Origin: Selenomonadales bacterium
GTDB taxonomy: Bacteria; Bacillota; UBA994
Direction of reading: 5' to 3'
Length of the DNA stretch: 43,055 nt
NCBI GenBank assembly: GCA_018335585.1
Contig: JAGXRZ010000062.1
Location: forward strand, 1 to 43,055
Each line of letters starts with the position of its first letter. The stretch's first letter is position 1. The notes beneath the pieces are model-generated. The model made no database searches, was not told where the DNA came from, and saw nothing but the letters and a program-made list of their open reading frames with translations. Shown here piece after piece: positions 5,753 through 43,055 of the stretch. The position numbers and the translations under genes were made by a program.

Positions 5753-6081
<329 letters not shown>

Positions 6082-15015: not shown

Positions 15016-15160
15016 AGTGCTCAGTGCCCAGTGCTCAGTGCCCAGTTGAGAACACGTACTTGTACGCTCATGAATCGCAAATCATGAACCATGAGTAAGG
15101 GTGAATCATGAACTAGGGGAATCGTACCCCGCTGGGCACTGGGCACTGAGCACTGGCACT
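15016..15160 (-). repeat. Heptad-repeat mosaic, copy B (MATE/GNAT intergenic)
   Basis: Lies in the 330-bp gap between divergent genes. On the plus strand it opens with TGCTCAG and TGCCCAG alternating twice (15018-15045). It then has degenerate GAATCAT/GAACCAT words (15070-15114) containing the anchor AGTTCATGATT on the minus strand (15114-15104), and closes with CTGGGCA x2, CTGAGCA, CTGGCA (15132-15157). The outer blocks form a perfect 18-bp inverted repeat, 15028-15045 against 15139-15156. The remaining gap sequence holds the MATE promoter and the GNAT ribosome site, nothing else recognisable. Confidence 0.85.
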
Positions 15161-29498: not shown

Positions 29499-29781
29499 GC
29501 GCGCGACGTGCGACGTAGGCCGTGCGCCGTGCTTCGTGCTTCGTGCTTCGTAGCTTAAGGCGTACGGCTTACAGCGTACAGCTTACAGCGAAGAACCGTT
29601 CCCCTTTGACCTTTCCACCTTTCCACCCCTCCCCTCAACGCTGATAGCACTCCCACCCAGTTCATGATTCACGATTCACGATTCACGATTACCCCGCTCA
29701 CAGCTCACTGCTCAAAGCTGTCGGCTGGCGGCCGGCGGCTGGCGGCCCCCGCCCCAAGCGACAAGTGACAAGCCACAAGCA
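29499..29781 (+). repeat. Heptad-repeat mosaic, copy C (response regulator/sigma intergenic)
   Basis: Occupies most of the 394-bp divergent gap. Plus-strand blocks: GTGCGAC-like words (29499-29528); CGTGCTT x3 (29528-29548); GTAGCTTA (29550-29557); CGGCTTACAGCG and variants (29565-29590); CCTTTCCA x2 (about 29610-29627, period 8); the anchor CAGTTCATGATT with CACGATT x3 (29658-29690); GCTCACA, GCTCACT, GCTCAAA, GCTGTCG, GCTGGCG, GCCGGCG, GCTGGCG in unbroken 7-bp phase (29696-29744); AAGCGAC, AAGTGAC, AAGCCAC (29756-29776). The words drift one or two bases at a time while the 7-bp phase holds. It is followed by the sigma-factor leader, in which I saw no certain promoter. Confidence 0.9.
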
Positions 29782-30489: not shown

Positions 30490-31732
30490 CGCACGCGATG
30501 ACCAAGCGTTTGTTTCAGCCCTAGAGGCCGTGTCGTTGCCGCATGCCGATACCCCCCGCTTTAAGGCAGAGCTTAAGGCGAAGCTACTGGTGGAGGCGGC
30601 GCAGCGCGCGCAACCCGTCCGTCCCGCTAAGCCCGCCGGTGTGGTAGGGCACCCGTGGTGGCGCTATGCGCTTGTTGCGGCGGCATTGCTTGTGGTGCTG
30701 ACTTGGCAAATGCTACCCGCTCCCTTGCCTGCTTTTGCCTACCTAGAGATTGAGGTTAACCCCGGCGTACGCCTGACGCTAAATGTGCGCGGGCAAGTCA
30801 TCGGCCTGGAACCCCTAGACGACGCTGCGGCACTGGCCTTGGGCAACATTAATCTGCGCAGGCAAACCACTGCGGAGGTCGTAACACAGGTACTGGGGCG
30901 CTTGCATGGCGCGGCTCTACTTGACGCAACAAGTCGGGTGTGGCTGGTGGCGTCTCCTGTCGGCGAGGCGCGGGCAGAGGAAGTAGAAAAGCTCTTGACC
31001 ATGGCGCAGACGGCCGTCAACACAGCGACACAGCACTTACTTACGCAGTCGGCGGCAGCACAGGGGCTGGTAGTTGACCGCGAGCGCTACGAAATAGCCA
31101 AGCAGGCCGCGCTTAGACCGTCGCAGTACCTTCGCGTGGCACGGGCAGGTGTGTCGGCAGCCGGGATGAAGGAGCTGGTGGCGGCAGGTGCAAGGCTACA
31201 GGCGACAGGGAAACTACCCGGGAACCGCCTGCGCGAACTGGCGGAACTAGTCGCGGAACTGCTGGAGCTAGGCTTGCCGGAAGGTGAAGCTGTGCAGCTT
31301 ATTGAGACCTTGCTTGCGCAAGAACAGAACATGGAACGCTTGACTAAGCGCATTGAGAAGGCCGTGGAGCGAATAGAGGAAGGGCAAGCGCTAAAGGACG
31401 CCGTGCAGGAGCTGCGAGAGGGCAAGGATCGGCTAGATGAGCGAGACGACGCAGAAGACGACGAAGATGACGACAAAGACGACGAAGATGATAAGCGTGA
31501 CAGATCCGAAGGCCGGGGACAAGGACAAGGTCAAGGTCAAGGTCAAGGCCAAGGCCAAGGTCAGCGCGAGCGCGAGGATAAGCGCGAGGATAAGCGTGAG
31601 GATGAGGGCGAAGGCGGGATTGACGACACAGGTGACGACGAGCGCAAGCCCGGCCCTGAGGATATTCCGCCACAAACCGATGGGGACGGCCAGGATAAGC
31701 AGGCGAACGAAGACAAAGACGAGGGAAATTAA
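30479..31732 (+). CDS. Membrane anti-sigma-like protein with RsgI-type domain and acidic tail
   Basis: 417 residues. A cytoplasmic segment of about 60 residues (FVSALEAVSLPHADTPRFKA, the pattern of anti-sigma domains with F-x3-L and a T-P-R-F-K-A-x-L box). One membrane helix at about residues 62-80. Then an extracytoplasmic domain opening AYLEIEVNPGVRLTLNVRGQ, which matches the conserved periplasmic part of RsgI-like anti-sigma factors. A long helical region follows. The C-terminal 110 residues are low complexity: Asp/Glu runs, eight Gly-Gln-type dipeptides and an EDKR repeat. It probably holds the sigma factor encoded upstream at the membrane. The domain pairing of an ECF sigma with an RsgI-type sensor is unusual. 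Confidence 0.8.
   Translation: METNARDDQAFVSALEAVSLPHADTPRFKAELKAKLLVEAAQRAQPVRPAKPAGVVGHPWWRYALVAAALLVVLTWQMLPAPLPAFAYLEIEVNPGVRLTLNVRGQVIGLEPLDDAAALALGNINLRRQTTAEVVTQVLGRLHGAALLDATSRVWLVASPVGEARAEEVEKLLTMAQTAVNTATQHLLTQSAAAQGLVVDRERYEIAKQAALRPSQYLRVARAGVSAAGMKELVAAGARLQATGKLPGNRLRELAELVAELLELGLPEGEAVQLIETLLAQEQNMERLTKRIEKAVERIEEGQALKDAVQELREGKDRLDERDDAEDDEDDDKDDEDDKRDRSEGRGQGQGQGQGQGQGQGQREREDKREDKREDEGEGGIDDTGDDERKPGPEDIPPQTDGDGQDKQANEDKDEGN
31517..31609 (+). repeat. In-frame hexamer and 12-mer tandem repeats within the anti-sigma gene
   Basis: Eight hexamers (GGACAA x2, GGTCAA x3, GGCCAA x2, GGTCAG) at 31517-31564 encode alternating Gly-Gln. Three 12-mers of GAGGATAAGCGC type at 31574-31609 encode Glu-Asp-Lys-Arg. 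Periods are multiples of three, unlike the 7-bp intergenic arrays. Confidence 0.9.
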
Positions 31733-31820: not shown

Positions 31821-32909
31821 ATGTTATCAGGAAACCGGAAATTCCTTGTTCCCTTATTGGTAATCGCTCTTTTGGCCACTAGTTTACTCTGGACCTTCCG
31901 TGCTCGCCCTGCGTTCGCACATATCACGCTGGAAGTTAATCCGAACCTGACGCTTACGGTTGACTCGAGGAACCGCGTTTTGGCCGTCGAACTAGGGGAA
32001 GGCAAAGCGCAAGAGCTTTTTGCCGACACCGATTTCCGCCATATGCCGCTTGAGGCGGCCCTCCGGCAAATCACCGCCAAAATCGAAGCGGCAGGGCTCC
32101 TTACTCCTGAGAGGCGTGTACTGCTAACTGCCCATGCGGCGACAGGCACTACCCCGGAACAACTGGCTCCGCTGGTGAAAAAGGCACAGGCAGTGATAGA
32201 CGTCCACATCAGAGAGGCTGCGTCGGCGGTACCGGTAGCCACGGCGATTGTATCGGCACCGCTAAGCGAGGCAGCAAAGAGACTGGGCGTATTGCCCTCA
32301 GTTTACGCAGAACTGATCGCCGGCGGCATATCCAATGAAACTCTGGTGGCACTGTTTGGCCAACTGACCGGCGAGGGCATTACCGCCAAGAATTTTCGCA
32401 AAGAGATTCGCGACATAGCCGAGAGCCTGCTCGATATGCGGGAGGAAGGCATTAGCGAGGCAATGGCTCTGCAGGTGCTGCAAAAGGCCATTAAGGCAGA
32501 CCCGGCTCTGCGCGAAGTTACTACTATCGCTTATGATTTCCTAGACCTAGTCGAGGCCGGGTTTGCGCCTGAAGCTGCACTGGCCGCCATTTCTCGGGCT
32601 ATCGCCGCCGACCCGACGCTCCGCGAACATAGCACAATTGTTGCGGTGCTTGCCGATCTAAAAGAGCAGGGCCTCTCCGACACAGATGCGTTAACTAAGC
32701 TTGAGCAGGCCATTACCGCCGACCCCACCCTGCGCAGTCTAGACGATTTGGTGGAAAAGGCCCCCCCGGGCACGCGCGGCCGCGCTCTAGGGAGGAACAA
32801 GGACAAAGATCGGGCTGACGAAGATAAGGATGACGAGGACGACGACAGCGACGACGACGACAGCGGCAAACCCGAGTTTCCCGGCAAGGGCAAGGCACGC
32901 GGACGCTAA
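31821..32909 (+). CDS. Second RsgI-like membrane-anchored protein with 37-residue repeats
   Basis: About 362 residues from the ATG at 31821 (AGAGGTG at 7 bases; a GTG at 31812 is less likely). An N-terminal helix at about residues 8-30 serves as anchor or uncleaved signal, with almost no cytoplasmic part. The domain AHITLEVNPNLTLTVDSRNR is a paralogue of the RsgI-type domain in the preceding gene, as are the following helical segments (AGLLTPERRVLLTA vs AALLDATSRVWLVA). Then come three copies of a ~37-residue helical repeat, each ending AI-x-ADP-x-LR. The tail is Asp-rich and ends in a basic GKGKARGR. Lacking a sigma-binding domain, it may be a co-sensor or decoy. A terminator follows. Confidence 0.75.
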   Translation: MLSGNRKFLVPLLVIALLATSLLWTFRARPAFAHITLEVNPNLTLTVDSRNRVLAVELGEGKAQELFADTDFRHMPLEAALRQITAKIEAAGLLTPERRVLLTAHAATGTTPEQLAPLVKKAQAVIDVHIREAASAVPVATAIVSAPLSEAAKRLGVLPSVYAELIAGGISNETLVALFGQLTGEGITAKNFRKEIRDIAESLLDMREEGISEAMALQVLQKAIKADPALREVTTIAYDFLDLVEAGFAPEAALAAISRAIAADPTLREHSTIVAVLADLKEQGLSDTDALTKLEQAITADPTLRSLDDLVEKAPPGTRGRALGRNKDKDRADEDKDDEDDDSDDDDSGKPEFPGKGKARGR

Positions 32910-42106: not shown

Positions 42107-42751
42107 ATGCAGAGAAACAAGAGGTTCACCCGACTGCCAAAGCATATCGGCATTATTCCCGATGGGAACAGAAGATGGGCTGTCAAGAACGGCAGGCAGA
42201 AGCAGGACGGATACCAGCGGGGCTTAGAGCCGGGGCTCCTAGTGTATGAGATGTGCCTAGAGCTAGGGGTACCGGAGCTTACCTTTTATGGCTTTACCCA
42301 GGACAACACCAAGCGCCCCGCTGCCGAGAGATTGGCTTTTCAGCAGGCCTGCGTGGATGCTGTTAGGCTGCTCTCTAACCGCGATGCCTCCTTGCTCGTG
42401 ATGGGGGACCATACGTCGCACTTCTTCCCACCCGAACTTTCGGAGTATGTCCACAGGAAAGTCTTCGGCAAGGGTCTTATGCACATTAACTTCCTCGTTA
42501 ACTATGGCTGGAAATGGGATTTGTCGCATCTGACGAAAGCAAGCGGTGGTCGCATTGCTTCCCACGACATATCGCGCATTGACCTGATCATACGGTGGGG
42601 TGGCCGGAATCGGCTTAGTGGCTTTCTACCTTTGCAGTCCGTCTACTCAGACATCTACGTGGTAGATGATTATTGGCCGGACTTTAGACCAGAGCATTTG
42701 CAGAGGGCCTTGGAATGGTATCAGAAACAGGATATCACGTTGGGCGGATAG
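42107..42751 (+). CDS. Divergent UppS-like cis-prenyltransferase
   Basis: 214 residues, shorter than typical undecaprenyl diphosphate synthases (about 240-250). The substrate Asp is kept in HIGIIPDGNRRWA (Met replaced by Pro). Other positions vary: the S-x-E-N motif is FTQDNTKRP, NYGGRxD is NYGWKWD, and the Mg-site Glu becomes Asp in YSDIYV. R-x-GG and R-x-S are retained as IIRWGGRNRLSGF. Such a set suggests an active enzyme with a different chain length or acceptor, or a sub-functionalised paralogue. The ATG at 42107 lacks a good ribosome site, so the start is uncertain. The bidirectional terminator at 42755 follows directly. Confidence 0.8.
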   Translation: MQRNKRFTRLPKHIGIIPDGNRRWAVKNGRQKQDGYQRGLEPGLLVYEMCLELGVPELTFYGFTQDNTKRPAAERLAFQQACVDAVRLLSNRDASLLVMGDHTSHFFPPELSEYVHRKVFGKGLMHINFLVNYGWKWDLSHLTKASGGRIASHDISRIDLIIRWGGRNRLSGFLPLQSVYSDIYVVDDYWPDFRPEHLQRALEWYQKQDITLGG

Positions 42752-42754
42752 GCG

Positions 42755-42782
42755 AAAACCCCGAGCGTATGCTCGGGGTTTT
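42755..42782. terminator. Bidirectional terminator between uppS-like gene and 5S rRNA
   Basis: AAAACCCCGAGC (42755-42766) pairs perfectly with GCTCGGGGTTTT (42771-42782) around GTAT. The A and T flanks make it a terminator on both strands: for the prenyltransferase gene and for the rRNA operon ending with 5S. Confidence 0.95.
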
Positions 42783-42792
42783 CTAATTTTCT

Positions 42793-42910
42793 TCCGGCAG
42801 CGTCCTACTCTCCCGGGGACTTGCGTCCCAAGTACCATCGGCGCTGGAGGGCTTAACTGCCGTGTTCGGGATGGGAACGGGTGGGTCCCCTCCGCCATTG
42901 CCACCGGAAA
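42793..42910 (-). rRNA. rrf: 5S ribosomal RNA
   Basis: On the minus strand the sequence carries the universal 5S core CCCGTTCCCATCCCGAACAC, then GGCAGTTAAGCCCTCCAGCG and CGATGGTACTTGGGACGCAA. The terminal stem forms between TTCCGG near 42908 and CCGGAA near 42794. Length is about 118 nt. It is the last gene of an rRNA operon that enters from the right. The terminator at 42755-42782 lies 10 bases beyond its 3' end. Confidence 0.95.
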
Positions 42911-42916
42911 TGTGTT

Positions 42917-43003
42917 AATCTTGAATCTTGAATCTTGAATCGCGAATCATGAACTGTGAGCCGCAACCCGAAGGTCATGTTTCATGATTCATGTTTCATG
43001 ATT
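42917..43003 (-). repeat. Heptad-repeat mosaic, copy D (23S-5S spacer)
   Basis: Minus-strand order: ATCATGA and AACATGA alternating (42998-42973), then GGTTGCGGCTCAC, the anchor AGTTCATGATT (42955-42945), CGCGATT, and CAAGATT x3 (about 42940-42919). It has period 7, and shares its words with arrays A, B and C. Because it lies between 23S and 5S genes it must be transcribed in the rRNA precursor. Confidence 0.88.
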
Positions 43004-43009
43004 TCTCAG

Positions 43010-43055
43010 GCGCATCGTGCACCTTCAAAACTGAACAGTGGGAAGTTCACATTCA
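43010..43055 (-). other. 23S-5S spacer, conserved rRNA-operon segment
   Basis: The minus strand reads GTTCAGTTTTGAAGGTGCAC, a motif common in rRNA spacers of Firmicutes next to 5S or tRNA genes. It indicates that the 3' end of 23S rRNA lies just right of the window. No tRNA is present in the visible spacer. Confidence 0.6.

Follow-up and report, generated by a model that had tools for sequence, protein, structure and literature searches.

BOX elements of Streptococcus pneumoniae and S. suis are dispersed, intergenic and modular repeats with more than 100 copies, a fixed module order, a variable number of internal tandem modules and a low density in relatives (PMC3049150). They are built from three or four module types of ~50 bp, end in inverted repeats, come with target duplications and have an RNA fold (PMC3049150). 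Tandem repeats of 7 bp, in which some positions are conserved and others free, are spread genome-wide through the intergenic DNA of cyanobacteria (Nostoc), Xanthomonas (PMC4692102) and Beggiatoaceae (TAACTGA; PMC4679880), where one word or a few are repeated alone. Geobacter metallireducens has 49 dispersed copies of an element with four tandem heptads and another family with five, each with a single word (PMC2700814). Citing a 2007 survey, PMC4692102 describes heptanucleotide repeats as over-represented in many bacteria, without explanation. A further class of non-autonomous intergenic repeats is formed by REP/REPIN sequences, which go with RAYT transposases. The arrays that we describe here resemble BOX in being dispersed, intergenic and modular, in copy number, fixed order and variable tandem units, and in their low density in relatives, but they consist of ~12 blocks of 7-bp units, have no fold and showed no target duplication; unlike the known heptanucleotide repeats, they combine a dozen words in one order with shared linkers. 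BOX is the closest known system in organisation, and the heptanucleotide repeats are the closest in unit. A literature search of open-licence papers found no description of an element that combines several heptad words in a fixed order.

The window, i.e. the whole stretch of 43,055 nucleotides that was analysed, is contig C62 of the draft genome G000 of an uncultured Bacillota bacterium (2.34 Mb, 69 contigs, 96% complete). Tandem-repeat analysis of the window revealed the 7-bp arrays A (at 5770-6081 in this analysis), B, C and D, listed below with their blocks. According to the initial annotation, array A (minus strand) and array C (plus strand) carry the same words in the same order, and all of the words that it listed are indeed present on these strands. 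Its list of blocks was correct as far as it went, and has to be extended by inverted K, GTGCTCA/GTGCCCA and GCTCCTG words in array A and by blocks F (CCTTTGACCTTTCCACC) and K in array C. The CGTGCTT repeats attributed to both arrays are found in array C, whereas array A has CGTGCTT just once, plus a single CGTGCTC. Local alignment of array A (minus strand) with array C (plus strand) gave a score of 71, compared with a mean of 19.5 and a maximum of 32 in 300 shuffles.

Heptad arrays of the window and their blocks (positions refer to the window)
Feature	Position	Strand	Content	Basis
Array A	5774..6081	-	blocks inverted K - D - C - D - G - I - J - L, read from 6081 to 5774	
Array A, inverted K	6051-6081	-	inverted GCCGCCA words	
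Array A, long GTGCTCA/GTGCCCA block	5987-6045	-		
Array A, GCTCCTG block	5946-5970	-		
Array B	15016..15160	-	blocks D - I - inverted D; partial palindromic copy	
Array C	29521..29780	+	blocks D-G-F-I-J-K-L	
Array C, block D	29521..29551	+	CGTGCTT heptads	sequence
Array C, block G	29550..29590	+	GCTTACR heptads	sequence
Array C, block F	29603..29629	+	CCTTTGACCTTTCCACC	sequence
Array C, block I	29659..29690	+	AGTTCATGATTCACGATT heptads	
Array C, block J	29696..29718	+	GCTCACA heptads	sequence
Array C, block K	29723..29746	+	GGCTGGC heptads	sequence
Array C, block L	29756..29780	+	AAGCGAC heptads	sequence
Array D	42917..43003	-	block I type heptads, directly upstream of 5S rRNA gene (presumed 23S-5S spacer)	

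Beyond the window, we sampled four further contigs of G000 (C20, C40, C53 and C46), which together with the window amount to 768 kb, and later another 335 kb, giving a total of 1.1 Mb. The 768 kb contain ~47 intergenic arrays, each with a subset of ~12 word blocks in one polar order; this number scales to roughly 140 or more arrays genome-wide, and about 13% of the intergenic gaps of at least 40 bp bear an array. The block words are GCACTTN (A), GTGGAGGACG (B), GCTCCTG/GCTGCTG (C), GTGCYYA/GTGCTTC (D), GTAGAGCGGT (E), CCTTTGACC (F), GCTTACR/GCGGAAA (G), GCCTAAC (H), GTTCATGATTCAC (I), GCTCACA (J), GGCTGGC (K) and AAGCGAC (L). The sequence AGTTCATGATT occurs 36 times in the genome, its reversed control not once. 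In the sampled contigs, exact 7-bp tandem runs numbered 196 as opposed to 48 in an order-2 Markov control, and the 7-bp autocorrelation was located in intergenic DNA. Other tandem periods were mostly near control, except for period 6 (296 versus 149) and period 14, the excess at the latter being a harmonic of 7. With their 7-bp tandem unit, intergenic position and many loci, the arrays are STRR-like. Their units stand head-to-tail without unique spacers of like length, on which ground a CRISPR array was rejected; separately, ~95 repeats with TCTTCCCCACGCGGGTGGGGGTGTTTC-like 9-mers in the sampled contigs do resemble a CRISPR array.

The polar order was examined against a null in which strand and position were randomised. 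It holds in 298 of 356 word pairs in the sampled contigs (null 89±10, maximum 128 of 2000). Because the order list had partly been read from the arrays on which it was tested, we applied the fixed list and order to the 335 kb fetched afterwards, where 176 of the 195 pairs in 29 arrays without AGTTCATGATT were consistent (null 49±7, maximum 73). In a set of 61 arrays, the two words of a pair share a strand in 449 cases and are on opposite strands in 42; A-to-L order holds for 420 of the 449. Random block order in other copies, named beforehand as the result that would speak against a common origin, was looked for; instead, block order and strand proved to be conserved across over 70 arrays, and two other species show the same conservation. 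Most arrays do not have several of the blocks. Block I is usually preceded by G (9 cases) or H (5), and both are present in only one array. A minority of copies has terminal inverted words, i.e. inverted K (and L) at the 5' end and K and L at the 3' end; the inverted K words are restricted to the 5' end, all 17 matches lying in the first 13% of the array.

Arrays of this dispersed family share descent by copying, with order and strand conserved; this follows from non-repetitive linkers and from an 18-mer of unequal heptads, which are found again and again at loci that are unrelated. The inter-block linkers have no internal repetition, yet variants of GTAGAGCGGTATCGCAGTGGTGACCGGTTCC come after block D at about 20 loci, and the C-I, G-I and J-H linkers are recurrent as well. 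The 18-mer GATTCCTGATTCATGATT, which consists of two unequal heptads and GATT, occurs 18 times in G000 and not in seven relatives; it marks a subfamily private to the species of G000. Arrays at different loci are ~72-94% similar in pairs over 60-260 bp with differing end points, and the non-orthologous loci C2 and C23 have 172 bp in common at 94%. The common descent by copying that the initial annotation had proposed is thus borne out, and local slippage is not the source of all heptad arrays, some of which at least are dispersed elements. That each array was made by independent slippage, with shared words due to coincidence or composition, has next to no probability: slippage of 7-bp units does occur, as a one-unit difference between alleles attests, but the order statistics, the shared linkers and the repeated unequal 18-mer exclude it as the origin of the arrays, as the initial annotation had argued. 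A single ancestral heptad for all words was also rejected; the excess of similarity between words is weak (p 0.017 for mean distance, 0.24 for nearest distance), and in this test no common phase across blocks was found.

We compared G000 with its congeners G001, G002 and G003 and with G004, which belongs to another genus of the same taxonomic family. Same-strand pairs were consistent with the block order in 42 of 48 cases in G003 and in 17 of 18 in G002, while G001 has almost no arrays (85 kb sampled). Among the 15 genomes of the class that the set contains, the G-I block pair is found only in G000, G002 and G003. A GTDB scan with an 18-mer returned only HKB212 and three single matches in unrelated genomes, which look like chance. 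The orthologous intergenic region of array C is empty in G001, G002 and G003, and that of array A is without an array in G001. Of the 38 orthologous intergenic regions in which G000 and G003 can be compared, 6 have arrays in both, 4 in G000 only, none in G003 only and 28 in neither; this sharing of sites is significant (Fisher p = 8e-5), with most G003 contigs picked for holding block I. The array content differs at the shared sites, and in one case (C46:67475) the orientation is reversed. Filled and empty orthologous sites thus both exist, with flanks that are only ~85% identical; at this divergence, no target-site duplication was visible by eye.

On balance, we consider it probable that the arrays are one dispersed, non-coding and non-autonomous family that was spread by BOX- or MITE-like copying, followed by exchange between copies; the preferred route is a BOX-like copy process in trans. 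The differing and inverted content at the sites shared with G003 goes against this reading, since insertions that were simply inherited vertically would not account for it. The main rival is pure recombination, a possibility that we hold to be rather unlikely though serious. It dispenses with transposition: heptad-rich intergenic regions would swap segments by ectopic recombination or template switching, order being kept since exchanges pair like with like, and a new site would only occasionally be gained, through microhomology-mediated capture. Mosaic sharing whose end points vary, recurrent junction types and the sharing of 6 of the 10 comparable array sites although their content differs are all consistent with it. 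However, the 4 of 10 sites that are empty in the congener require a route to new sites, and the inverted words at the 5' end resemble element ends.

In the copying model that we prefer, the ancestral copy would have been polar, with the order (inverted L, inverted K) - A - B - C - D - E - F - (G, or J-H) - I - J - K - L. Most of the letters belong to a few degenerate 7-base units, and short unique linkers join the blocks. The family may have been multiplied in trans by copy-and-paste, the mode of spread that has been proposed for BOX or MITE repeats. Exchange via shared heptads may then have homogenised the words within species, and the same exchange may have produced subfamilies with recurrent junctions. 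Slippage by 7 bp, block loss and mosaic recombination followed the copying. The allelic arrays of C7 and C40 have equal blocks, and what sets them apart is one heptad unit and several substitutions, in line with the heptad expansion inside blocks after copying that the initial annotation had suggested. The homologous contigs C60 and C64 of the same assembly are ~95% and 90% identical on the two flanks of an array whose content is k-D-C-G-I-J in one and F-J in the other. From the one-unit difference and this unequal content it follows that units slip and that block content is lost or exchanged; the arrays change by gain and loss of 7-bp units, in block content and by forming mosaics. They provide a system for tracking block gain, loss and shuffling between close species, and the subfamily markers can be used to follow how intergenic DNA turns over in an uncultured lineage.

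A bounded mobile element could not be demonstrated: array ends vary, and no constant terminal base could be shown. We could tie no transposase to the family, and no autonomous copy of it was met within the stretches read. Genes for RAYT-like Y1 transposases are present in 6 of 6 genomes tested, and 2 of the 4 whole RAYT-like genes of G000 have an array just upstream. This observation, together with the few arrays that contain or abut REP-like palindromes, would fit arrays that are passengers of the genome's RAYT/REP system, which we nevertheless regard as very improbable. Unlike REP/REPIN, the arrays have no palindromic hairpin unit, and REP-like palindromes are not enriched near them (3 of 43 array-bearing versus 22 of 292 other intergenic regions). 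The palindromes themselves (GAAGCAAAAGGGACGGAGCTTTTTGCTTC and relatives) border RAYT-like Y1 transposase genes on both sides (C60, C64) and recur genome-wide, with 37 core matches in 768 kb. Another palindromic family, GTAGGGACGTGC...GCACGTCCCTAC, is likewise scattered through intergenic DNA (e.g. C53:95302-95361 and C20:271055-271132).

The unit of 7 bp whatever the word, and the fixed order, might also be explained by an ordered template that is copied by a telomerase-like or reverse-transcriptase enzyme slipping by 7 nt. We judge this highly improbable: the Pfam model PF00078 (RVT_1), the one model used, had no match in the draft genome G000, nor in G001, and the linkers have diverged between copies. 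In addition, unit variants such as the CAC-CCT-CAT units of block I recur identically at different loci and so look inherited. For the ordered template function that the initial annotation had offered as an alternative, our analysis found no evidence. A further and very improbable reading is a genome-wide system that writes intergenic arrays from an ordered master in 7-nt steps. Blocks would be copied and expanded by an enzyme whose translocation is fixed at 7 nt, and the heptad arrays of many bacteria would be the work of one type of activity. If true, cyanobacteria, Xanthomonas, Geobacter and this genus would share one kind of heptad-writing activity.

Selection for a function in cis, i.e. 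RNA processing, termination or protein binding, could likewise keep the order. Variation is limited to one or two positions per heptad, and in 85 units of block A four positions are invariant and the seventh is nearly free; conserved cores with one free position could hint at selection, but as unit variants recur identically at different loci, the pattern can also stem from the founder copy. Heptamer repeats of other bacteria serve as binding sites for cold-shock proteins (reviewed in PMC4679880). On the other hand, array folding is not in excess (mean z -0.5 on either strand versus -0.65 for random genome sequence), co-orientation with genes is not significant (16 co versus 10 anti, p = 0.33), and the replication strand deduced from GC skew shows no bias (22 versus 20 arrays). 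The absence of several blocks from most arrays and the near absence of arrays from the 85 kb sampled of G001 point in the same direction, and a cis function appears improbable. The lack of both fold and orientation bias is expected of a passenger, and the distances of the arrays, with medians of ~20 bp from stop codons and ~80 bp from start codons, fit tolerated insertions. A cis function is not needed to explain the data, and the arrays can be regarded as tolerated intergenic fillers. With Rfam covariance models, the window matches 5S rRNA only, and four array loci had no match over the arrays.

Several minor observations concern the surroundings of the arrays and the relatives. Array D has a near-identical copy in a second operon, on C45. 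At the window end (42740-43055) and on C45, the space between the presumed 23S gene and the 5S rRNA gene is occupied by heptad arrays, which are therefore probably transcribed together with the rRNA. The 5S rRNA gene of G004 has different heptads (AGAAGCA) as its neighbour, and this genome has heptad words of its own, AAGAGGC and AAGAAGC (18 exact runs versus 8 expected). Two neighbouring anti-sigma-type proteins in the window have long C-terminal tails (31433-31611 and 32834-32865), acidic or GQ-rich, of low complexity and with tandem repeats; a sigma factor gene is located just upstream. In G002 (C2:8859-8968), the words shift gradually along one array from CCAGCCG through CTATCCG, CTATGTG, CCATGTG and CTAAGTG to CCAAGTG, which looks like the stepwise mutation of one heptad word into another.
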